A stretch of DNA of 42,849 nucleotides from Candidatus Micrarchaeota archaeon CG1_02_55_22 (GTDB taxonomy: Archaea; Micrarchaeota; Micrarchaeia; Norongarragalinales; UBA97): positions 1 to 42,849 of the forward strand of contig MNVH01000031.1 of the NCBI GenBank assembly GCA_001871595.1, in the 5' to 3' direction. Within the stretch, counting starts at the first letter, position 1, and every line of letters begins with the position of its first letter. This document shows, piece by piece, positions 2 through 41,720 of the stretch. The position numbers were made by a program, and so were the translations under genes. The notes beneath the pieces are model-generated. The model searched no databases. It saw only the letters and a program-made list of their open reading frames with translations, and was not told the origin of the DNA.

Positions 2-3000
2 TCGCGGACGCTAGACTTCGGCAACGGTGCCCGCGCGGTATTCGACCGCGACCTCATCGTCGACGAACGCCGCGCCAACTCTCCCACGAGCACGTTCAAC
101 GAACTCGTGGTCACCGCTGGCACGCTCGTCACCTGGTCAGCAGGCATTGTCAAACCACTCAACCTCGACTCCTCGCCCCAGCGCTCGCCGTTAAATGGCC
201 TCGAACTCACCATTCCATCGATAACCGTAGTACGCATTCCCGACGACTCACCGGTCCAGCGCGGCAACGACGGCACCACGCTCGCTTTCTTCGACGACTA
301 CTACCTACGCCTGCCTACACAGGCAAGGCAAATCACCGAGTACGGACAAAGCGGTTACAAGTCGTACGAAATACCGGCCAACGCGGCGCTGCGCCTGGTA
401 CCCCGCGAGCTATCATTCGGAGCGCAGAGTAAGGGCTTCTCTCTCCCGTTCGATGCAATCATCGTCCTCCCCGCAAACGCCGCGACAACTGAAGCGAAGG
501 ACGGCTCGCGAAAGGTTACATTCAGCCAAGCAACCAACGGGATAAGCCTTGCCGGAGAAAGGGAAATCATTGTCTCGACTGAAGCAACGATAGAAAAGAA
601 CGCGCTCACCATCCCGGCAGGCACGATTTTCTTCCCATCCGAATCACTCATCACCGCCGAAGACAAACAAACCACGATGCAGGGTGCAACAGCAACCACC
701 ACGGTGAGGCGCTTGCGCACGCCCACGCAAATCATTGTCAAGCCCGCCGAAAAAGTTACGTACTCGGAAAACAAGGACGGCTCGATTACAACGTATTCAG
801 GCACACAGGAAGTGACTTTTGGTCCGGGCACGAAAGCGCAAGTAACGCCCCAATCGATACAGTTCCTCGTGCCTGCAAACACGTACATCGAAGTCAAGCC
901 AATCGACCCCATGCTCTCAGGCAACACCGCGACATTGACTCTACCAGTAGACGCCGAGTTCTCAACCTCGCCCGACACCCGCATACTTCCACCCGGCCCG
1001 TCAGGCGAACGCGCGATAATCTATTCACCCGGACGCGTCCTCGTCGTCCAACAAGACTCGCAACTCCGCGGCACTCCCCCAACGATTACAATAACGGCTA
1101 GCACGCCGTTCGCAGCCTCGGCACCACTCGTACGGACAATTGAAACAGATAGGCGCGACACGCGATCCGTTCTGCCGCCCGGCGTGCGTTTCGCCACCCC
1201 GACGCAGACAACGCTAGTGGTGACACGCGACGCAAAGATTACGCGCGACGACCGCGGCGCAATCGTGGTAAGCACGGGCTACGACGAAGTCGTCGTCCCC
1301 GCATCAGCGCAAATCGTACAGGGCCGCGGCAACACGGCAACGCGCATCACGCTGCAAGCGAACACGCTCATCGAAGTACGACCAATAGACTACGACTACA
1401 GCCAACTCATCGGAGTGACAATGCCCTACCGCGCAATATACGCGTTGCCAGCATCCGCCCGCGCACGCCAGTCGCCCGACTCGCAGACAATAATCGTCTC
1501 CCTGCAAGGAGGAAAGCGCCTCGCCTTCGAGAACGCCAAGCTCGTTGAAACGCAGGGCCGCGCCACGCGCGTTGACGCTCCCGAGAAGACGCTGCTCTAC
1601 GTGGATAAGGACGCCACGCGCGAGAACCCGCAAGGATTCGAAATCACCCTGCCAATAGCATGGAAACTAATCCTACCTAACGAGGCAACTGTACCGACAA
1701 CGATGCCGAACACCGTGAGGCTACCGGACAAGACCTCGATAACCACTTCGTTCACGCCCCAACTCCTCGACGGAACTGGAGAATCAGGCGAAACCGGCAA
1801 CCGCAAGCGCCTCGAAATACCAGCCGGCGCAACGGTAGCATTCGGCCCGACGTCGTTCACGAGCGACGAGGAAAGGGAGAAGAACGCGGGCGGTAGCACG
1901 GGCACGCTCGCATTCAACAACCGCGAGAACTCGGGCATAATCTTGCCAGCAAACGCCAAGGTGGAATCAACAGGCGGAAGCGTTTCCGTCGTCCTCCAGC
2001 AGTGCGTCAACCTAGACGTCAAGGCAACAGCCGACGCTTACAAACTCTACGGATTACCCGCGTCAATCGGCGGCAAGGCGCAAGGCACCGTCGTCGATGC
2101 GGGCAACGGGCAGAAACAAATCGTTCTCGCTGCCGGAACGAAGGTAACGCTCGCAACATGCAACCCTGACACCGATGACTCAAAGGTAATAACGTATTAC
2201 CCCCGCACCGAGACCACGTTCTTCCTACCAACTGACACCGAGCCTGCGGACAACCCCACGCCTACTGCAAAGTTCCCAGATTGCCGCCAGCTCCAATCGT
2301 TCGGTTCGAACCTGCCGCTCGAGAGCGCAACACAACTCGACTTCCCCTCGAACTCTAAAGTATACCCCGATCCCAACGTTGAATCAGAATTATTCAAGGA
2401 CAAGAAAAAACAAGTCACAGTGGCTGCAAAGCAGCCCGTCGGAATACACTCGTGCGCCGACCCGGTGGACACCGGCAGCGCCACGCTCTCGCAGAGCGAC
2501 TTGGAGAAGCCCGCGCTCGAAATCAAGCCCTCGCCGCTCATAATCGAGATAAAATCACCCGCAAACCAGAACACCACGCAAGTATGCGTGCAAGACCTCC
2601 TTGAAGAGACGCTCGCAGTGAGCGCGAACTTCCAGCAAGGCGGGGTGCGCGGCGACTTGAAGGAGTACGTCGACCCGCGCGGCGTGGTGTGGATCGGCGG
2701 CTTCCAGTCCGGCAGCCAAGAGATAGACATCTCACCCGGCAAGCCGTGCGAATCCAACCCTTACGACATCACGGCGCGAATCCCGGAGTACAGCGATGAT
2801 TTGGACATCAACGGCTGCATCAAGGAAGAAAAGGAAATCAAGGGAGAAATCGTGTTCAACGCGCGGAGCCAGAAGGACGGCGCTACCAAACAACCCGGCG
2901 TACTGCCGGTAACTCTCAAACTCGTGAAGGGCGGCGAGTGCGCGCCCAAGCAAAGCATTGCCAACGTCCCCCAGTTCAATGACGTGTACGGCACGCAAGC

Positions 3001-6000
3001 CGACTCGATACAGTTTGCAGGCTCGACGAGCGACACGATAAAACGCCAGCTCGTATTCAAGGCGCCAAAACATGTTCGCGTCTTCGCGCTGGTGAACAAC
3101 CGCAAGGAGAGCGTTAAGTTGCGCGAAACGTGGCAACAAGCACGCCAAATCGCTTCATGCCAAGTGGACGTCCTCGCATCTTTCGGCGGAGAAACCAAGA
3201 CGAATGCAAACCAACCCGTTGACGGCCTCGTACTCGCCCCGGGAGACGCGGCGCTCGTCAAGTGCGTTTCTAACGACGTGGTTGAAGCGAGCAACGCGAA
3301 CTACGAAGTAACGGCAATTGGCCAGACTACTGGCGAAGAACAAAAGACGACGATACTCTTCAAGATGACCGTGTACCAGCCCCTCGATGCGGTGAAAGAC
3401 CTTTACCCAATCTCCCCAATAGGCGAGTTGACGGGCGCGGAAGAAACCGTTTTCACACCCGCAACCGCTGAATCCGTTGGTGCAACGGGCGCGGGAGAGA
3501 CCACGACGACGGAGACAACTACTGAAACATCAACCACCGGAACATCGCCTGAAGCAAACCCGGCAACGCCGCCAAGTACCTCGACGACAACAGCTAAGAC
3601 TGCAGCAATCGACCGCATCTCGTTCGCCGACGTTGCGGTTGAGAATATGGGCGGAGCGACGACTGAAGGCGGCCCCGGCGGAGACTCCGTACTCGTTGAC
3701 CCGGGCGTGTGGCGGTTGTGCGAGGAAAAGTTCTGCGACTCGCCGCAATTCAAACGCGCCGCCGCATCCTACGCAAACAACATCTACAATTACTTGCAAG
3801 GCCGCATGACGCCGGCTGACGAGAAGGAAAAGGTCGGCGAGAAGATTGATGCGGTTTACAAGACTACTAACGAAGGCGTGATTCGCAAGAGCTTCGTACT
3901 ACAGAAGGCGGGGCGCGACTCGATTACCGAGGCGCAACTTGATGACGCGGTACAGCAAGGCAAACCGTCCAACTGGAAGGCGAATATTCCCTTAGGCGTA
4001 AACGGTCCGGTCGAGGGCTGCGGCATCTGGTTCGGCGAGCTCGAAGTACGCTTGAAGCCGTCACCCATCCTGGGGAGCGCCGAATACGACGGCGGAGTCG
4101 ACTTCAGCCGCAAGTACCTCGACGACGCGGACGTCAAGATGACGCTCACAAAGGTGTACACGTGCGCGGACGAGCTCAACAACCTCGCGTTGCTTACCGG
4201 GCGACCCGAATTACAGGCAATAGGGCAGACTGGCTTCCTTAATCCAGAAGTATTCGTCGGACAAGAACGCGTGGAAGGCAACTCGGAAGAGTTTGGCCAG
4301 ATACTGCGCGAAATCAAGGAGGACGGCTTTAAGGGCGCCTTTGGCGCGATAACGATTGGTTCGTACCGCGACAAGCGCGATGCTGAGGACACGGAGACCG
4401 CTCAACAGTTATACGAAGCGCTCTACAACCAGCGGCTCGACGAGAACACCGAGATGAGCGACTCGCTCTACGACGGCACGGACGCGGCGGGTTGGTGCGT
4501 TGGCAAGGGCGCGGCAATCACGGCCAAGCTCGGCGGAGTAATGCTTACCGAGTCGCTTACAGTCGCAGCGATATCTATTGCATTAATAGCAACAGGCGCA
4601 GGATCTGTTCCGGGAATATTGGGCGCGGGCGCGGCCGTAGATGCGGTGCCAATCGGCACAAGGCTCGCCGCGTTCGGTAAGCAACTCGCACGAAGTTACA
4701 CGCGCGCACTAGCGAATTGCGGAGCTATAGGCGTTGGCGCGGGCGTTGGTTCTATTGGAGGCACGGGCGGCAACACGGTGTGCCAAGCGGTCAACGCGTG
4801 CATTTACTCTGAAGTATTCGACGCGGCCACATTCGGAATCGGTAGTACACTGAACTTGGGCGTCGGACCAGAGGGCGTCAAGGCCGCTGAAGCAGGCCTG
4901 CGCAACACGGCAACGCAACCGTTACTGCGCGGTTCTGTTGGCTCGGTACGCGGTTATTTGGGCGTCGCTGGCGCTACTACCGTAATCACGGGCGGTATAC
5001 GCGGCCTTGAAGCGGTTACCGCGCTCAAGCCCGGCCACGCCGTGCCCGTTGCAGTCCGCGCGGTGCGCGTCACGCAAGAAGTTGCACGCGCCGGACTACG
5101 CAGCCAGTTCGTACAACGCGCGGTCCAGCAAGGCGCGTCAGCCGGAGCGGCCAACGCGTGGCTTGAACAATTCGTGAACGACTATCCGCGGTACACCCGG
5201 TTGTACGCCTCGCGCGCAGCGCGAAACCCGGGCGTAACAGCGACACAGTACGCCTTGCGCAGCGCGGGGCTTGAGGCGGGCAGAATCGCAGGACTGCCTG
5301 CAGGCGAGAGCGCCGCACTTACCGCTGCTGCCAGCGATGGAGCAGTGCTCACCCAGATGGAGCCCGTTGTCGCGCCGTTCGTGCGCGAGTACGGACAGGC
5401 AATAGCACTGCAGGTAAAAGCAGCGTTCGGAGACGCCAAGCCTCCTTGGTCGGCGAGTACCACTTACGCGCAAGAATTCGATTCCCGAATAGCTAGTGGC
5501 ATTGCACCGCAACAAGCGATGGAGGAATTAGCAGACCAGTACAACACTTTCAGGCGCGGCAACGAACTTGCCGGGTTCGAGGTAACCCGGGACGGGTACA
5601 TCTCGGGTGCGGCAACGCACGACGACATACTCTCACGGTTCGCCGACCCGGCCACCGGTTTGGATGACTTGACGAAGCTTGACGACTTGCTGGTGCAAGC
5701 GAGGGCTTACACAGTACCTGCATTGCCCGGCGGAGCGCCGGATACCGCAGCTCAGGACTATTTAGATGATGTGGTACGCCAGCTTGTTGAGCGCCGAACG
5801 GCGGTTACCGACGCTGCTTCGCCGGCTTTCGTACAGGCGTCCGAACGAGAGTTCGTACAACTCATGCAACCTAAATATATTTCATCCACCGGTGCAACCG
5901 CTCCGATTACGGTGGCGGAAGCGATGACGATAATGGAGGGCCAAGTCTCAAAGAACGGTTTCTTCAACCGCTTGAAGGTCAAGTGGGGCAACTTGAACAA

Positions 6001-6640
6001 GAAGGCAGCCGGCACCACGCTGGCCTCGCTTGCAGTGTCGCTGTTATTCCACGCGGAAGTCCGTCCAGTCGCTGCGCACACGTTGCCGCCGCTTGACTCG
6101 TTTATTGTGGCAACGCAGTCGCAACCGTTCCGCAAGGGCATTGGCGTTATGCAGACCGCCCCGTTGCCGAGCATTACTTTTGGTTGCGAGATCAACAGCA
6201 ATGTTGACCCGACGGCGGAAGCGATTTACTGCGGGCCCAAGCTGATCGACTTGTCCAAGTCGTGCGAGTACGAAAGCGGCCGAGGCATATGCCTGATTTA
6301 CGGCAAGAAGCCGAACGGCCGGTACTTCCTGACAACTGTACTTACCAAGGGAGCGACGTCGTCCTCGGCGGTGACTGCAACAACATCGTCGAGCGTGACA
6401 CCTGCATCGCGCAGCACGCGCGCGCCAACTCCAGAGAAACCAAAGGAAGCGGTTCAAGACGGGCAGACTACCGTGCTTGGTCCGGCTGCAGGCGAGTTAT
6501 TCAGGTCCATGTTCCGGCCCGACGACCGAATAGTTACCCCCGTGCTTCTTGGACGCGCCAAGGTAATACCGTACAATGCTGGCACGCCAGTACCAACCGA
6601 GCCGTTGCCGCCGGACGCGGAGGCGGGCACAACCGGGTAG
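2..6640 (+). CDS. giant secreted/surface protein, 5'-partial (frame open to left window edge)
   Basis: The frame is open from base 2 through the predicted GTG at 107 with no stop and no signal peptide at 107, so the true start lies outside the window. Repeated beta-type modules (ANTxIEVxPID), a Thr/Ser/Pro-rich linker (TTTTETTTETSTTGTSPEANPATPPSTSTTT), internal hydrophobic segments. Confidence 0.85.
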   Translation, partial: SRTLDFGNGARAVFDRDLIVDERRANSPTSTFNELVVTAGTLVTWSAGIVKPLNLDSSPQRSPLNGLELTIPSITVVRIPDDSPVQRGNDGTTLAFFDDYYLRLPTQARQITEYGQSGYKSYEIPANAALRLVPRELSFGAQSKGFSLPFDAIIVLPANAATTEAKDGSRKVTFSQATNGISLAGEREIIVSTEATIEKNALTIPAGTIFFPSESLITAEDKQTTMQGATATTTVRRLRTPTQIIVKPAEKVTYSENKDGSITTYSGTQEVTFGPGTKAQVTPQSIQFLVPANTYIEVKPIDPMLSGNTATLTLPVDAEFSTSPDTRILPPGPSGERAIIYSPGRVLVVQQDSQLRGTPPTITITASTPFAASAPLVRTIETDRRDTRSVLPPGVRFATPTQTTLVVTRDAKITRDDRGAIVVSTGYDEVVVPASAQIVQGRGNTATRITLQANTLIEVRPIDYDYSQLIGVTMPYRAIYALPASARARQSPDSQTIIVSLQGGKRLAFENAKLVETQGRATRVDAPEKTLLYVDKDATRENPQGFEITLPIAWKLILPNEATVPTTMPNTVRLPDKTSITTSFTPQLLDGTGESGETGNRKRLEIPAGATVAFGPTSFTSDEEREKNAGGSTGTLAFNNRENSGIILPANAKVESTGGSVSVVLQQCVNLDVKATADAYKLYGLPASIGGKAQGTVVDAGNGQKQIVLAAGTKVTLATCNPDTDDSKVITYYPRTETTFFLPTDTEPADNPTPTAKFPDCRQLQSFGSNLPLESATQLDFPSNSKVYPDPNVESELFKDKKKQVTVAAKQPVGIHSCADPVDTGSATLSQSDLEKPALEIKPSPLIIEIKSPANQNTTQVCVQDLLEETLAVSANFQQGGVRGDLKEYVDPRGVVWIGGFQSGSQEIDISPGKPCESNPYDITARIPEYSDDLDINGCIKEEKEIKGEIVFNARSQKDGATKQPGVLPVTLKLVKGGECAPKQSIANVPQFNDVYGTQADSIQFAGSTSDTIKRQLVFKAPKHVRVFALVNNRKESVKLRETWQQARQIASCQVDVLASFGGETKTNANQPVDGLVLAPGDAALVKCVSNDVVEASNANYEVTAIGQTTGEEQKTTILFKMTVYQPLDAVKDLYPISPIGELTGAEETVFTPATAESVGATGAGETTTTETTTETSTTGTSPEANPATPPSTSTTTAKTAAIDRISFADVAVENMGGATTEGGPGGDSVLVDPGVWRLCEEKFCDSPQFKRAAASYANNIYNYLQGRMTPADEKEKVGEKIDAVYKTTNEGVIRKSFVLQKAGRDSITEAQLDDAVQQGKPSNWKANIPLGVNGPVEGCGIWFGELEVRLKPSPILGSAEYDGGVDFSRKYLDDADVKMTLTKVYTCADELNNLALLTGRPELQAIGQTGFLNPEVFVGQERVEGNSEEFGQILREIKEDGFKGAFGAITIGSYRDKRDAEDTETAQQLYEALYNQRLDENTEMSDSLYDGTDAAGWCVGKGAAITAKLGGVMLTESLTVAAISIALIATGAGSVPGILGAGAAVDAVPIGTRLAAFGKQLARSYTRALANCGAIGVGAGVGSIGGTGGNTVCQAVNACIYSEVFDAATFGIGSTLNLGVGPEGVKAAEAGLRNTATQPLLRGSVGSVRGYLGVAGATTVITGGIRGLEAVTALKPGHAVPVAVRAVRVTQEVARAGLRSQFVQRAVQQGASAGAANAWLEQFVNDYPRYTRLYASRAARNPGVTATQYALRSAGLEAGRIAGLPAGESAALTAAASDGAVLTQMEPVVAPFVREYGQAIALQVKAAFGDAKPPWSASTTYAQEFDSRIASGIAPQQAMEELADQYNTFRRGNELAGFEVTRDGYISGAATHDDILSRFADPATGLDDLTKLDDLLVQARAYTVPALPGGAPDTAAQDYLDDVVRQLVERRTAVTDAASPAFVQASEREFVQLMQPKYISSTGATAPITVAEAMTIMEGQVSKNGFFNRLKVKWGNLNKKAAGTTLASLAVSLLFHAEVRPVAAHTLPPLDSFIVATQSQPFRKGIGVMQTAPLPSITFGCEINSNVDPTAEAIYCGPKLIDLSKSCEYESGRGICLIYGKKPNGRYFLTTVLTKGATSSSAVTATTSSSVTPASRSTRAPTPEKPKEAVQDGQTTVLGPAAGELFRSMFRPDDRIVTPVLLGRAKVIPYNAGTPVPTEPLPPDAEAGTTG

Positions 6641-30541: not shown

Positions 30542-30846
30542 ACGGATTGTTTGACGTTGTAGGGTTTACCGGCTGGCTTCAAACCGCAGTAGCGTTGGCG
30601 GTCTTTGGTTTCGCGCCGGGTTGTTTGTTGTTATTGGCGTTCAAGCACGAGAAAGACGTTTTAGCACTTTTGCGGGAAGATGTTTTTGAATCGGCGGGCG
30701 TGGCGATAGTGCTCTCGCTTGTTGTTCTGGCTCTCGCCTCGGCGGCGTTGGCGTTCAGCGTTGGCGTGAGCTTGTTCTCGTTGTTCCTCTTAGAGTTATT
30801 GATTATTGCGGGTTGCTGGTGGAATTGGAAGAAAAGTTCAGGTTGA
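30538..30846 (+). CDS. small membrane protein
   Basis: ATGA overlap with the previous gene; three hydrophobic segments. Confidence 0.55.
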   Translation: MNGLFDVVGFTGWLQTAVALAVFGFAPGCLLLLAFKHEKDVLALLREDVFESAGVAIVLSLVVLALASAALAFSVGVSLFSLFLLELLIIAGCWWNWKKSSG

Positions 30847-31331
30847 TTGCGGCGGCAGTGCTTTTCGCCGGCGTCCTAGCAGTAGCGTCGCAAGCTTACG
30901 CGTACAAGAACATGGAGAACGAGTTGGCGCCGTGGTATGGCCCGATGATATCGCAGGACGAGATTGCTGCGGCAATGTGGGCTGACGAGAATTTGGCGCA
31001 CTGGCAGCTTTTCTCAGCGGATTTGTTCGCCTGCGAGATGCTTACAGCGGTGGCTCGGCAGTATTGCTCGGTTGGTGGGGCGTGGGAATTAGCTGACAAT
31101 GCAAACCAGCGTTTTGCTGACAACGAGAAAGTTTTCACTACCCCTTCAGCGCTCGAGGCGTGGCAACTCTCGAAAAAGTACGGCGTCAAGTACGTATTAG
31201 TTGAGGCGCGCCAGTCGTTCTACGGTTACGGGTACAAGCTGCCGAACGCGGGGAAGTTTTCTGACACTAAATACTTCCGGCTCATCCACCGCGTTGGCAG
31301 GGCATCGGTTTACGAGGTGGTTGGCGCGTGA
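30831..31331 (+). CDS. single-TM protein with extracytoplasmic C-terminal domain
   Basis: TM LIAAAVLFAGVLAVASQAYAY then soluble domain ...YGVKYVLVEARQSFYGYGYKLPN...; start between 30813 and 30840. Confidence 0.6.
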   Translation, partial: EKFRLIAAAVLFAGVLAVASQAYAYKNMENELAPWYGPMISQDEIAAAMWADENLAHWQLFSADLFACEMLTAVARQYCSVGGAWELADNANQRFADNEKVFTTPSALEAWQLSKKYGVKYVLVEARQSFYGYGYKLPNAGKFSDTKYFRLIHRVGRASVYEVVGA

Positions 31332-32392
31332 AAAAACAACTCGTCCTTGCAATTATTATCTTGCCCGCGCTGGTTTTCGGTTTCGCGTTGGCGTGGCACG
31401 GCATCTTCGGCGTTGCCGGCGACGCGCTTCCGGCGTTCGACAACGCGTTCTTGCACGTCGCCCGCGCTCGTTACATTATCGACACTGGCCTTTTTCACGA
31501 GAGCGAACTCGTTTTTGGCGCTGGAATAACGCCTACTTACCACGTGCCGTTCTACCCCGCACTTGTAGCAGGTTTTGCAACGCTTTCGGGCCTTGACGTG
31601 TTTTGGGCGGTGCGCGTCGTCTCCTTGCTTCAAGTGCTTCTTCTGGGCATCGGCTTTTACGTTCTTGGCAAGAGAATCTCGGGCGGAAACGCATTTGCAG
31701 GTGCAGCGGCCGCTTTCTTGGCGTACAACTCGGTTGCGTTGATGCAGTGGGGGACGAGGAATACGGCGATTAGTTTCGGCGTCCTGCTGGTGCCGCTCGC
31801 GTTATACTTCGTCCTGCGGCGTTGGTGGGTTGCCGCGCTCCTCGCCTCGCTCGCCATAGCACTCGACCACCCGCCCTCGTTGTTGGTGTTGTGCCTCTCG
31901 CTGCTAGTCTTTACTATCGCGTCATCCTTGCCTGCAGTAAAACCGTTCCTTGAAAGAAAGTGGCGCAAGGCATTGGCCGATGTGGAGTGGCTCGGCGTGG
32001 CGTGCGGCCTCTCGGCGTTTATGGTTTATATGGTGTGGCACGTTCGGCAGACTGGCCTTGCCTGCTTGGACTTCAAGTGCTTGCCGCAAGCCGCAGCGAG
32101 AGAGTTCGGGAAAAGCATTGACTTGGTTGCCTACGCGGCCAAGTTCCCACAGTTTTTGGGAGTGCTAGGATTTTTTGTCGCGGCGTTAGACCAGAAGATT
32201 GATTACCGTGCCAAGTTGTTGTTCTTTTCGTGGCTTGCGGCGTGCGTGCTCTTGGTGAAGAACGATGCGTTGGGTGCGGGCGTTTTTACCGAGAGGTTCA
32301 TCACGTTCCTCGACGAGCCCCTAGCGTTGACGGGCGGGTTGCTGGTCGGCTACGCGTTCTCGGTTGTCTCAGGCGAACGCAAGAAAGTCTAG
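31328..32392 (+). CDS. multi-pass membrane protein (glycosyltransferase-like)
   Basis: GTG start overlapping the previous stop; DNAFLHVARARYIIDTGLFHES...PTYHVPFYPALVAGF. Confidence 0.65.
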   Translation: MKKQLVLAIIILPALVFGFALAWHGIFGVAGDALPAFDNAFLHVARARYIIDTGLFHESELVFGAGITPTYHVPFYPALVAGFATLSGLDVFWAVRVVSLLQVLLLGIGFYVLGKRISGGNAFAGAAAAFLAYNSVALMQWGTRNTAISFGVLLVPLALYFVLRRWWVAALLASLAIALDHPPSLLVLCLSLLVFTIASSLPAVKPFLERKWRKALADVEWLGVACGLSAFMVYMVWHVRQTGLACLDFKCLPQAAAREFGKSIDLVAYAAKFPQFLGVLGFFVAALDQKIDYRAKLLFFSWLAACVLLVKNDALGAGVFTERFITFLDEPLALTGGLLVGYAFSVVSGERKKV

Positions 32393-35606: not shown

Positions 35607-38255
35607 ATGACGGAATCTGAAGCCCAGACTCGTCGTAAGATTGACGCGGTTCTGGAAGCTTGCGGTTGGCGGGTTGTGCCGTACCAAGAAGGCAAAGACT
35701 ATTCATTGCAAGCCGCATGCGCCATAACCGAGTTTCCTACTGAAAACGGCCCCGCCGACTATGTATTGGCGGCTAAAGGCGAGCTGCTGGCCATCGTGGA
35801 AGCCAAAAAGGTGGCCTTGGGCGTCCAGAGCGTTCTTTCACAAGCCCAGCGTTACGCTAAGGGCATCAAGCCCCACAAGTACGGCGATTACGGCGTGCCA
35901 TTCGCGTACTCTAGCAACGGCAACGAGTTCTACTTCCAAGACCTACGCGAAACGCGCGGTTATTCTCGGGCGGTAGCCAAGTTTCACACCGTCAACGGCT
36001 TGAGGGAAATGCAATCCAGCAAGCAGGCGGACGGCTTGGCGTGGCTCAAGGCTAACGCGCGCCTGCCTGCCCGAGCAAGGCCCTACCAAGCGGAGGCTAT
36101 TAACGCAACCGAAAAGGCCCTCGCTTCAGGCAAGCGCCGCATGCTCGTCGCCATGGCTACCGGTACGGGCAAGACGTTCGCCATGGCGGCCGAAATATAC
36201 CGCCTGATGAAGTCCGGCTATGCCAAGCGCATTCTTTTTCTCGTGGACCGGCGCGCCTTAGCTGCTCAAGCCGTGCGTGAATTTGCTACGTTCGAGGCAG
36301 AGCCGGGCAAGAAGTTCGACCAGATATACGAGGTCTACAGCCAGCGTTTCAGGCGCGAGGACTTCGACGAGGAAGACAAGTTTGACCCAAAAGTGCTCCC
36401 ACAAGAGTATCTTGAGAATCCCAAGCTGGGCAACGCGTTCGTTTACGTGTCCACTATCCAGCGCATGCGGATGAATATCTTTCACGATGGCTTCGACGAG
36501 GAGGAACCGTCTGATGACGCCAACGTGCCGCAACTTGACATTCCTATTCATGCCTTCGATGTGATTATTGCTGACGAGTGCCACCGGGGCTATACGGCTG
36601 CCGAAGTGAGCAAGTGGCGGCAGGTGCTTGACCATTTCGACGCCGTTAAGATAGGCTTGACCGCCACGCCTGCCGAGCATACGACCGCTTACTTCCACGA
36701 CATTATCTACCGCTACGGCATTGACCGGGCGGTAGCCGAGGGTTATCTCGTTGACTACGACGCAGTAACTATCGACTCGAAAGTCAAACTCAAGGGCTTG
36801 TTCTTGAAGCAGAATGAACTCGTCGGGCTTGTGGACCGAGAAACGGGCTTGGAGAAGCTTGACAACGTGGAGGACGAGCGCGAGTTCGAGAGTTCCAAGA
36901 TAGAACGCGAGATTACTTCGCCCGACTCGACGCGCAAGATAGTAAAAGAGTTGTGCACGTTTCTAACCGACAAGGAAAAGGAGCTAGGGCACTTTCCTAA
37001 GGCGCTAGTCTTCGCAGTTCAAGACATGCCTCATACCTCTCACGCCGACCGGTTGGTTAATGCCTTACGCGAGGAGCTGGGCCGGGGAGACAAGTTCGTC
37101 CAAAAGATTACTGGCACCGTTGACCGGCCATTGCAGGAGATTCGAAAGTTCCGCAACCGCCCAGAGCCCGGTGTCGTAGTAACCGTGGACATGCTATCTA
37201 CAGGCGTAGACATTCCTGCGCTTGAAGCAATAGTCTTCCTGCGGCCAGTTCAGTCCCGCATATTGTTCACGCAGATGCTTGGCCGTGGTACTCGCCGGTG
37301 CGACGCCATCAACAAGACGCGGTTCTGGGTGTTTGATTGCTTCGGAGGCTCATTACTCGAATACTTCAAGAACGCAACAGAGTTCACCGCAGACCCGCCG
37401 GACAAGCCCACCCGGACGACCGCGGAAGTGATTGACTCAATTTATCGCAACAAGGACCGCGACTACAACACGCGTTGCCTCGTCCGACGCCTCCAGCGCG
37501 TGGCTAAAGACATGGACGGCGAAGCGGTAAGCGACTTCGCACACTTTATCCCGAAGGGCGACGTTTCACAGTTCGCCCAAGCGCTGCAGGGCAACTTGAA
37601 GTCCAACTTCGTTGAAACCATCGGCTTGCTGCGTGACGCTGGCTTCCAAAAGCTCCTCTTGTCGTATCCCCGCAAGCAACGCATATTCCTAATCGCTTAC
37701 GATACTAAGGACGAAGTATCGTCCGAACTCGTCTTTAGGACGGTTACGGGCGACGAACTCAAGCCACCGGACTACATTGCCGCGTTTGAAGAGTTCATCA
37801 AGAAGAACCCCGACAAGGTTGAAGCCATACGCATCCTACTTGCGCGTCCCAAGGACTGGGGTACTGACGCGTTGAGCGAGCTTGAAGACAAATTGGAGCA
37901 CCGGCCGGAGAAATTCACGCGCGAGCGGCTGCGAAAGGCTTATCACAACGAGCTTGCCGACATTATATCGCTAGTCAAGTACGCCGCCAAGAAAGAGCCG
38001 AGCCTGCTGTCGGCTGAAGAACGCGTTGAACGCGCCATGGCGCGTTTGACGAAAGGCAAGAAGTTTACTGCCGAGCAAGAGAAGTGGCTCGGCCTCATCA
38101 AGGCGCACTTGGTGCAGAACCTCGCCATCAGCGAGCAAGACCTGCAGGAAATGCAGATATTCGCCCGTGCAGGTGGCTTGAGGCGCGCTAACGCTGCCTT
38201 CGGCGGCGGCTTGCCAGCGCTATTGAAGCAAGTTAACGAGGAGATGGCCAAGTGA
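35607..38255 (+). CDS. hsdR: type I restriction endonuclease R subunit
   Basis: N-terminal nuclease-like PADYVLAAKGELLAIVEAKKV, helicase motifs ATGTGKTFAMA, DECHRGY, GLTATPAE, MLGRGTRRC. Confidence 0.92.
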   Translation: MTESEAQTRRKIDAVLEACGWRVVPYQEGKDYSLQAACAITEFPTENGPADYVLAAKGELLAIVEAKKVALGVQSVLSQAQRYAKGIKPHKYGDYGVPFAYSSNGNEFYFQDLRETRGYSRAVAKFHTVNGLREMQSSKQADGLAWLKANARLPARARPYQAEAINATEKALASGKRRMLVAMATGTGKTFAMAAEIYRLMKSGYAKRILFLVDRRALAAQAVREFATFEAEPGKKFDQIYEVYSQRFRREDFDEEDKFDPKVLPQEYLENPKLGNAFVYVSTIQRMRMNIFHDGFDEEEPSDDANVPQLDIPIHAFDVIIADECHRGYTAAEVSKWRQVLDHFDAVKIGLTATPAEHTTAYFHDIIYRYGIDRAVAEGYLVDYDAVTIDSKVKLKGLFLKQNELVGLVDRETGLEKLDNVEDEREFESSKIEREITSPDSTRKIVKELCTFLTDKEKELGHFPKALVFAVQDMPHTSHADRLVNALREELGRGDKFVQKITGTVDRPLQEIRKFRNRPEPGVVVTVDMLSTGVDIPALEAIVFLRPVQSRILFTQMLGRGTRRCDAINKTRFWVFDCFGGSLLEYFKNATEFTADPPDKPTRTTAEVIDSIYRNKDRDYNTRCLVRRLQRVAKDMDGEAVSDFAHFIPKGDVSQFAQALQGNLKSNFVETIGLLRDAGFQKLLLSYPRKQRIFLIAYDTKDEVSSELVFRTVTGDELKPPDYIAAFEEFIKKNPDKVEAIRILLARPKDWGTDALSELEDKLEHRPEKFTRERLRKAYHNELADIISLVKYAAKKEPSLLSAEERVERAMARLTKGKKFTAEQEKWLGLIKAHLVQNLAISEQDLQEMQIFARAGGLRRANAAFGGGLPALLKQVNEEMAK

Positions 38256-39655
38256 CTGACGTTGTACAAAAACTCTGGGGATTCTGCCACGTCTTGCGTC
38301 ACGACGGCATTGACTACGGCGACTACATAGAGCAGATTACTTATCTGCTGTTCCTCAAGATGGCCGAGGAACGCGGTGGCCTCTCCGTACCCGCCAAGTA
38401 TAACTGGGCGTCGCTGCGCGACAAGTCCGGCACGGAACTGCAAGAACACTATGTAGACACGCTGCGCGCGCTTGGCAAGGAGCCGGGTATTCTCGGCCAG
38501 ATATACTCCGGCGCGTTGTCTCGCTTCCAGAATCCTGTGAATCTAAAGAAGCTCATTAGTTTAATTGACGAGCTTGACTGGACTTCGCTCGACGTGGACG
38601 TCAAGGCAGCGGCTTACGAGGGCTTGCTTGAGAAAGCGGCTTCTGAAGGCAAGAAGGGCGCTGGCCAGTACTTCACGCCCCGCATCGTGATTGACTCTAT
38701 GGTGCGCTGCGTCAAGCCCGACCCGCGCGGAAAGAAGGACTTTACGGTTCACGACCCGGCAGCGGGTACGGGCGGCTTCCTCTTATCCGCCTATGAGTGG
38801 CTCATGCGCGAAACCAAGGGAGGCGCGCTCGACCGGAAAGACGCAGAGCGCATCAAGCACCGCGTCTATACTGGGCAGGAACTCGTCCCGCGGCCCCGGC
38901 GCTTGTGCCTCATGAATCTCTACCTGCACGGCTTGGAGTCGGACATTTACTTGGGCGACACTATCGCCGAGGCTGACTCCGGCAAGCGTTACGACGTAGT
39001 GTTGATGAACCCGCCGTTCGGTACGAAGGGGTCTGGTGAAGCGCCTGTTCGCGACGACTTTACTATCTCGACGAGCAACAAGCAGCTTAACTTCATCCAA
39101 CACGTCTTGACTATCCTCAAGCCGGGCGGGCGCGCTGCCATCGTGGTTCCAGACAACGTGTTGTTTGAGGAAAAGGCCGCGGAAGTCTTCGAGATTCTAA
39201 TGAAGGACTGTAACTTGCACACGGTCTTGCGGTTGCCTAACGGCACTTTCTCGCCATACTCACCCGGCGTGAAGGCCAATGTCATATTCTTCCAGAAGGG
39301 CTTGCCTACCGAGAAGACTTGGATATTCGACGCGCGCGCCAACGTGCCGTCAATAACCAAGAAAGACCGGCCCTTGACTAAGGAGCACTTCGCGGAGTTC
39401 GAGAAGGCTTACGGCGACAACCCCAACGGCACGAGCAAGCGCGTCGAGTCCGAGCGTTTCAAGTGCTTCACGCTGGAGCAGATTCGTGACCGCGGCTATC
39501 ACTTGGACATCAAGTGGATTGAAAGCGACGAGATTGACGAAGACGCCGACCTCGAACCTGAAGAGCTCATTGAAGCCATCAAGGAGAGCCAGCACAAGAT
39601 TCACGAACACCTAGAGAAAATCCAAGAAGTGCTCAACAATGGCAACGGAAACTAA
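38252..39655 (+). CDS. hsdM: type I DNA methyltransferase M subunit
   Basis: GAGQYFTPRIVIDSMV, DPAAGTGGFLLSAYEW, VLMNPPFGTKG; GTG start overlaps the hsdR stop. Confidence 0.94.
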   Translation: MTDVVQKLWGFCHVLRHDGIDYGDYIEQITYLLFLKMAEERGGLSVPAKYNWASLRDKSGTELQEHYVDTLRALGKEPGILGQIYSGALSRFQNPVNLKKLISLIDELDWTSLDVDVKAAAYEGLLEKAASEGKKGAGQYFTPRIVIDSMVRCVKPDPRGKKDFTVHDPAAGTGGFLLSAYEWLMRETKGGALDRKDAERIKHRVYTGQELVPRPRRLCLMNLYLHGLESDIYLGDTIAEADSGKRYDVVLMNPPFGTKGSGEAPVRDDFTISTSNKQLNFIQHVLTILKPGGRAAIVVPDNVLFEEKAAEVFEILMKDCNLHTVLRLPNGTFSPYSPGVKANVIFFQKGLPTEKTWIFDARANVPSITKKDRPLTKEHFAEFEKAYGDNPNGTSKRVESERFKCFTLEQIRDRGYHLDIKWIESDEIDEDADLEPEELIEAIKESQHKIHEHLEKIQEVLNNGNGN

Positions 39656-40799
39656 CGATAAGTTGCCTGAAGGATGGGTATTGCGGGAATTAGGCGACCG
39701 TGAATTATGTGAGGTGGTTGCAGGGTCAACGCCAAGCACAAGCAATCCTGAATTATGGGACGGCGACATCCTATGGATAACCCCTAAAGATCTTTCGGGG
39801 TTCAAGGGCGTGGAGATAAACGACACTGCCAAGAAGATTACTCGCGCGGGCTACGAATCATGTTCTACACACTTGCTCCCTGCTGGAGCAGTTCTATTGT
39901 CTACTCGCGCGCCCATAGGCTACCTTGCAATTGCAGGTAAACCGCTATGCACCAACCAAGGATTCAAAAGCTTCGTGTGCAAAGAAGAACTCAACAACCG
40001 GTACTTGTTCTATTATCTAAAGAGTATCGTTCCACAGCTGCAAGCCGAAGGTTCAGGAACCACATTTAGCGAATTATCCAAACAACGAGTAAGCGAGATT
40101 GAAATTCCGTTATCGCCCCTAGAAACGCAGCGTAAGATTGTCTCTAAGCTTGACGCGTTCTTCGCGGAGTACAACGCGGCGAAGAAACAACACGAACTAG
40201 CGAAGAAGAGAAGCGAGAAGATAATGCAAGCGGCGATAAGTAAACTGATTACTAATGCTGCGGGCACTTGGCCAGAAACAAAGCTCGGATCGCTTATATC
40301 TCTTAATTATGGTAAAGGTCTTACTAGCGTGGCTCGGTCGGGGGGACGCGTTCCCGTCTATGGATCTAATGGAATTGTAGGACAACACAATTCTGCGCTG
40401 GTTAATCAAGACACCATAATTGTTGGGCGTAAGGGCACGGTTGGTGCATTGCATTACGCACCTTTTGAATCGTGGCCTATAGACACGACCTATTATGTCA
40501 GCGTAACACAAGGGATTCACCTAGACCTGCGTTTCCTTTACTATGCATTGAAACAATATGACCTGCTCGGTATGGATACATCCTCAGCAGTTCCTGGACT
40601 TAATAGGAACGACGTGTATGCCTTAGACTTCAAACTTCCACCGCTAACAGAGCAGATGCGAATAGTATCAGAACTAGACGCTATTGCTTCACAAATTTCA
40701 AGCTTGACTGACCGTCAGTCCCGTGTTGGCCGAGCGATAGGAATCCTTCCGTCAGCAATACTTCGAAAAGCCTTTAGCGGCGAGTTGGTGGCGGAATGA
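39639..40799 (+). CDS. hsdS: type I specificity S subunit
   Basis: Two target-recognition domains plus conserved helices PLSPLETQRKIVSKLDAFF and PLTEQMRIVSELDAIAS; overlaps hsdM. Confidence 0.93.
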   Translation: MATETNDKLPEGWVLRELGDRELCEVVAGSTPSTSNPELWDGDILWITPKDLSGFKGVEINDTAKKITRAGYESCSTHLLPAGAVLLSTRAPIGYLAIAGKPLCTNQGFKSFVCKEELNNRYLFYYLKSIVPQLQAEGSGTTFSELSKQRVSEIEIPLSPLETQRKIVSKLDAFFAEYNAAKKQHELAKKRSEKIMQAAISKLITNAAGTWPETKLGSLISLNYGKGLTSVARSGGRVPVYGSNGIVGQHNSALVNQDTIIVGRKGTVGALHYAPFESWPIDTTYYVSVTQGIHLDLRFLYYALKQYDLLGMDTSSAVPGLNRNDVYALDFKLPPLTEQMRIVSELDAIASQISSLTDRQSRVGRAIGILPSAILRKAFSGELVAE

Positions 40800-41479
40800 A
40801 TTTAGAGCGATTAAAGCTTATCTGGCGCTATAATTCTAGGGAATTTTCTGCATATTTTATTCTGGCCCTAGTTCTTCCAATAATTATTCTCGCATTAGAC
40901 CTATTCACGACACAGAGCTGGACTGCTTCAACAGTCTTGTTCTCGGTATTCGCAGGCTTGGGCCTGAATCGCTTCTTTCAGGAATGCCGCAAAATTGACC
41001 GCAAGTTGGATGCACTTAGAGACGTATTACAGCAAGTACGCGTGTGGACGAAACCAATGAAGACGCTGGTTAAAAGAAAGTGGATGCCTCAGCTCAATTG
41101 GCTCGATGGTCAACTTAAGATGGAGCTTGTTGACTTTTTTGGACTTAAAGTATCGCCCCCAAGATATCTAATTCCGCACCCGTTCTCAAAAATACAAGCC
41201 GTATCGATTAAGAATTTAGCAAATATTACTGCTCCAGACAAACAAGCACAGCTTATAGGTTCCATTCAGTCAGTAAACCACAAGATAGATCACCTGAATT
41301 TTATCTTAGCCAAACTCCACGGCAGGGAGGCTATAAGCTCTGAAGAATTGGATGAAATTCGAAGGCTGGTATCCGGGAGTAACCGCGCAGTTCTGCAAAC
41401 GTTAAGAACGGAACTAAAAACGGTTGAAAAAGAGATTACTACTATTCTTAAGAAGTATGATGCTATGAATGCACCGTAA
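40796..41479 (+). CDS. two-TM membrane protein with coiled-coil C-terminus, coupled to hsdS
   Basis: ATGA overlap with hsdS; FSAYFILALVLPIIILALDLF and STVLFSVFAGLGLNRFF, then long helical cytoplasmic region. Confidence 0.75.
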   Translation: MNLERLKLIWRYNSREFSAYFILALVLPIIILALDLFTTQSWTASTVLFSVFAGLGLNRFFQECRKIDRKLDALRDVLQQVRVWTKPMKTLVKRKWMPQLNWLDGQLKMELVDFFGLKVSPPRYLIPHPFSKIQAVSIKNLANITAPDKQAQLIGSIQSVNHKIDHLNFILAKLHGREAISSEELDEIRRLVSGSNRAVLQTLRTELKTVEKEITTILKKYDAMNAP

Positions 41480-41498: not shown

Positions 41499-41720
41499 AT
41501 GACTCTTGAACTCAAGAACGGCGAGCGAACAATCTACTGCCCATTCTGCAGCAAGTACGGCGTCAAGGCGTTCTACCGCGCGCCCTTCAAGGGATTCGGC
41601 AAGAGCCGTGGCAGCGGCGTAACGAGCACGTTCTCAACAAAGCACAACGAAGAGTATCACGTTCTCGGAGATTGCCCGAGTTGCAAGGCGAAGAAAGAAG
41701 AGATTAAAAAGAAGCTCTAG
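41499..41720 (+). CDS. small zinc-ribbon protein
   Basis: 73 aa, CPFC ... CPSC. Confidence 0.65.
   Translation: MTLELKNGERTIYCPFCSKYGVKAFYRAPFKGFGKSRGSGVTSTFSTKHNEEYHVLGDCPSCKAKKEEIKKKL

Follow-up and report, generated by a model that had tools for sequence, protein, structure and literature searches.

Type I restriction-modification (R-M) systems are usually viewed as cytosolic three-subunit machines, in which hsdS is the gene choosing the DNA target. In the window, by which we mean the whole 42,849-nucleotide stretch analysed here, the R-M operon carries a fourth gene, hereafter X, whose product is predicted to sit in the membrane. The window comes from contig 58 of a Micrarchaeota metagenome-assembled genome (MAG; 1.19 Mb, 82% complete). 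Does X belong to the R-M system, and what might a membrane protein do there?

The operon in the window

The four genes lie head to tail on the forward strand with overlaps of 4, 17 and 4 nt:

35607-38255, forward strand: hsdR, 882 aa, with HSDR_N, ResIII/DEAD helicase and EcoEI_R_C domains (Pfam), and Walker A MATGTGKT and DECH in the translation
38252-39655, forward strand: hsdM, 467-aa N6-adenine methylase (Pfam N6_Mtase, 1.9e-61), with DPAAGTGGFL and NPPF motifs in the translation; its GTG start overlaps the hsdR stop
39639-40799, forward strand: hsdS, 386 aa, two target-recognition repeats (two stretches of Pfam Methylase_S), GC3 0.455
40796-41479, forward strand: X, 227 aa, unnamed family, predicted N-in/C-in two-TM (transmembrane) hairpin followed by a cytosolic helical domain, GC3 0.425
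40844-40909, forward strand: TM1 of X by hydropathy, residues about 17-38 (model helix 14-38)
40919-40984, forward strand: TM2 and interface of X, residues 42-63, WTxxTVLFSVFxGxGLxRFFQE, its most conserved 22 residues (17/22 identical)
41276-41299, forward strand: cytosolic motif NHKIDHLN of X, residues 161-168, invariant in the two-sequence alignment

An HsdR with nuclease N-domain and helicase, an HsdM and an HsdS with two target-recognition domains are thus found in a single operon, as expected of a type I system, and judged by its sequence the operon looks intact. It shares R, M and S with their Pfam domains with the classical three-gene hsdRMS, but adds a fourth, membrane-type gene that is absent in most relatives. 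The preliminary description had reported the overlaps between hsdR, hsdM and hsdS and the start of X inside the hsdS stop; the coordinates confirm both, and Pfam confirms the three R-M genes. The ATG of X (40796-40798) sits over the TGA of hsdS (40797-40799). Such ATGA coupling alone is weak evidence for a functional link, because an unrelated pair of genes in the window (30813-31331 and 31328-32392) overlaps in the same way. At the hsdS/X boundary, promoter-like and terminator-like sites did not exceed chance; the consensus used is bacterial and says little for an archaeon.

Downstream of X, a 73-aa zinc-ribbon-like gene follows after 19 nt (41499-41720, forward strand), and then a transglutaminase-like gene. 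Three genomes of the same order hold relatives of this zinc-ribbon-like gene; our search detected no hsdS in them, and the gene is probably the native one downstream of the island. At the other end, positions 2-6640 (forward strand) hold an ORF that is open at the window start and exceeds 2,200 aa.

Relatives of X and their genomic setting

A profile search of 301 genomes of the phylum revealed one clear homologue of X (E 6e-43, 41-43% identity), in a genome (G005) from another Micrarchaeota family of the same class as the window host. Since such a protein exists in another family, X is a genuine gene and not a chance ORF. The search beyond the phylum comprised one degenerate-pattern scan of GTDB genomes, whose sole match was the same homologue (JAKAJC010000001.1, Micrarchaeota archaeon), together with plasmids, phages and viral contigs, in which no relative was found. 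The NHKIDHLN pattern did match in four viral contigs, within 23-aa frames, and these matches were dismissed as chance. Weaker profile matches (L003, L004 and others, of which L003 alone was inspected in detail) resemble frames that are antisense or broken, or else generic helical segments within larger proteins. Pfam, NCBIfam, PHROGs, PADLOC and PDB sequences contained no match to the family. All conclusions on X are therefore drawn from a known family of two members.

The second member also lies within a type I operon. In G005, the homologue (L005, 7807-8514) starts within the hsdR stop, again ATGA-coupled, and ends 12 nt before hsdS, which is followed by hsdM. The gene order is thus hsdR-X-hsdS-hsdM in G005 versus hsdR-hsdM-hsdS-X in the window; hsdS adjoins X in both, and both copies overlap the preceding gene by 4 nt (hsdS in the window, hsdR in G005). 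With identities of 31% for HsdR, 45% for HsdM and 41% for X, the two R-M systems are, on sequence comparison, distantly related. The expectation that homologues would recur beside hsdS is thereby upheld, as the only one found sits inside a distant type I operon, rearranged and still coupled. Past hsdM, two further coupled genes, both AT-rich (L005, 11411-14276, forward strand), extend the G005 operon. They encode 212 and 746 aa; the former has a weak HslV-type PHROG match (E 0.0014) and the latter no Pfam match.

The nearest relative of the G005 system, in G024 (HsdR 50%, HsdM 62%), is arranged as hsdR-hsdS-hsdM, with X absent and no room for it, and X must therefore have been gained or lost between R-M lineages. 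We found hsdS in 20 of the 301 genomes, both X-bearing genomes among them, a coincidence with a chance of 190/45150 = 0.004 under simple sampling that ignores phylogeny; the other 18 hsdS-bearing genomes are without X. The HsdRs closest to that of the window come from the MAGs G274 (69%) and G148 (62-63%), in which X was not found and the sequence downstream of hsd ends at contig ends. In the data searched, X occurs inside type I operons only, is missing from most of them and is tied to two distant R-M lineages. By its distribution and sequence, X is an exchangeable accessory of Micrarchaeota type I R-M operons and not an R-M subunit. The linkage to R-M proposed earlier therefore holds; an obligate subunit X is not, considering G024 and the 18 of 20 hsdS genomes that do without it.

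Base composition hints at how the window operon was assembled. GC3 of hsdS and X contrasts with 0.69-0.74 for hsdR and hsdM and 0.63-0.74 for 13 other genes of the window; in G005 the values are 0.64 (R), 0.49 (X), 0.39 (S) and 0.50 (M). It looks as if hsdS and X of the window arrived later and together, possibly through exchange of an hsdS-X cassette. As hsdS genes often recombine, this shared composition is suggestive only.

Is a membrane gene unusual in such a place? By one hydropathy rule, membrane proteins account for 6 of 31 hsd-operon accessory genes versus 54 of 232 other ORFs of the same stretches, a background that still includes hsd genes, and we rejected a general enrichment in Micrarchaeota hsd operons. 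The membrane location of X could therefore be incidental. Finding a membrane gene among hsd genes is thus nothing special; what stands out is the recurrence of the same family in two distant operons. Other TM genes occupy comparable slots. In G180, hsdS is immediately followed by a gene for 385 aa with two TM segments near the N-terminus (L091, 4163-5320, reverse strand). In G014, a two-TM protein of 234 aa and another protein of 285 aa are encoded between hsdM and hsdS (L079, 6999-8590, reverse strand), and in G064 the gene for a 212-aa protein with an N-terminal anchor overlaps the start of hsdS (L076, 6073-6711, forward strand). The 285-aa protein weakly matches PADLOC Mem_04, a type III CRISPR membrane protein (E 0.04). 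The TM accessory genes of these three genomes have no profile similarity to X.

Predicted anatomy of X

Two N-terminal TM helices, a long helical cytoplasmic tail and a coiled-coil character had been predicted for X. TM1 stands out clearly (hydropathy (KD) peak 2.6); TM2, a short segment of weak hydropathy (16-residue mean about 1.4-1.5), is a helix in both of our AlphaFold2 models, which were built on two-sequence alignments (pLDDT 64 and 71.5). Both models contain TM1, a TM2 helix that runs on as a cytosolic stalk, and a C-terminal bundle of three helices (residues 147-223). The long helical tail is thus right in outline. A coiled coil as such is not supported, as the models show one helix of 43-53 residues that begins within TM2, then a linker that is modelled poorly, then three more helices. 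Charges of +4/-2 at the N-terminus, a neutral loop and +13/-7 over residues 61-120 fit an N-in/C-in topology, which we infer for X. Searching with the models produced no significant fold match; the best hits (E 0.09-0.4) were generic helical bundles and were rejected.

Conservation between the two proteins is uneven. From 40% overall, identity drops to 17% in the linker and rises to 77% in TM2 and its interface (residues 42-63), with a modest permutation P of 0.02 for a segment type that is often better conserved anyway. Two cytosolic regions also stand out, residues 96-108 (PQLxWLDGQL, 77%) and 151-172 around NHKIDHLN (59%).

A two-TM hairpin followed by a cytosolic helix is also the architecture of SLATT-type (SMODS/SLOG-associated) effectors, which are small effectors of conflict systems. 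The predicted shape of X may resemble theirs, at the model confidence given above and with a weak TM2. However, no Pfam SLATT profile matched X (E<=1) or its homologue (E<=0.01), and the partner of X is an R-M system whereas that of SLATT proteins is a nucleotide-signalling system.

Possible roles of X

Three roles had been suggested for X beforehand: tethering of the R-M complex, sensing of entering foreign DNA, and abortive action when R-M fails. Our preferred reading, to which we assign a probability of roughly 0.38, is that X may be an R-M-linked membrane effector or guardian, PrrC-like in logic but unrelated. PrrC is a latent anticodon nuclease sequestered by the type IC R-M system EcoprrI (PMC3874165; PMC12707154). 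X resembles it in occurring sporadically as an accessory gene within, or coupled to, a type I operon, and we propose that X, too, is held by the complex. It differs in being a 227-aa protein with a predicted TM hairpin: no NTPase or nuclease family match was obtained, and neither X nor its homologue has a PrrC/RloC nuclease or ABC-type NTPase domain in Pfam or PADLOC. As a putative inner-membrane N-in/C-in hairpin, X would contact the R-M complex through its cytosolic helical domain, probably at HsdS/HsdM, given that hsdS neighbours X in both genomes. More tentatively, X would be a latent effector kept quiet by the intact complex; when a virus inhibits or escapes R-M, the hairpin might oligomerise via its Gly-containing TM2 and damage the membrane. 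The scheme would follow PrrC/EcoprrI logic with a membrane effector replacing the tRNA nuclease.

In favour of an effector, we count the second type I operon with its rearranged, still coupled homologue adjoining hsdS; the greater similarity of X than of HsdR between the operons (41% versus 31%), with X lacking in G024 at 50% HsdR identity; the presence of both X genomes among the 20 of 301 with hsdS; the foreign GC3 common to hsdS and X, as if they co-arrived; the identity of TM2 (77% versus 40% overall), which is beyond an anchor's need; and the precedent of PrrC, a latent effector encoded within a type I operon. Against it, we count the family's two known members without an effector-family (Pfam, NCBIfam, PADLOC, PHROGs) or fold match, the lack of membrane-gene enrichment in hsd operons of the phylum, and the modest TM2 statistic.

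Somewhat unlikely, in our view, is that X merely occupies a permissive site within a mobile R-M cassette, cotranscribed and acting alone (e.g., in superinfection exclusion) or without any role in defence. Unrelated accessory genes are numerous in Micrarchaeota hsd operons (31 counted), with unrelated membrane proteins in G180, G014 and G064, ATGA-type overlaps occur elsewhere in the window and most R-M operons are without X, all of which a passenger would explain. It would not explain why both known copies (2/2) lie in R-M operons of different lineages, adjoin hsdS and overlap the preceding gene by 4 nt. A tether role, in which X would keep the R-M complex at the membrane to meet foreign DNA as it enters, appears unlikely. 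The modelled hairpin anchor and helical domain would suit a tether and EcoKI is reported to be capable of membrane association, but most type I operons, including that of G024, manage without X. Hydrophobicity alone would suffice for an anchor, yet TM2 is the best conserved part; together with the two conserved cytosolic motifs, this argues mildly against a bare or passive tether.

Least probable is a control protein governing HsdR assembly or turnover (restriction alleviation). Archaea possess a membrane-bound Lon protease and are not known to have ClpXP, and X could for instance bring HsdR to Lon. Type I enzymes need HsdR control when entering a new host (PMC12707154). The coupling of X with hsdR (G005) or hsdS (window) would accord with such a role, but the sequence of X offers no evidence of protease-adaptor features, and G024 and other operons do without it.

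The effector or guardian reading thus stays ahead of the passenger, tether and control readings. Its fullest form, a new DPANN guardian family of two-TM effectors that move between distant R-M operons beside hsdS, are silenced by the complex and disrupt the membrane upon restriction failure, is itself unlikely. Judged by sequence, the occurrence of X in two Micrarchaeota R-M operons suggests an add-on part of a defence system, in a phylum whose defence is little studied. The joining of one membrane protein family to two type I systems so far apart would suggest that archaeal restriction has a membrane step, be it anchoring, entry sensing or suicide, and the operon in the window offers a small, testable four-gene system.
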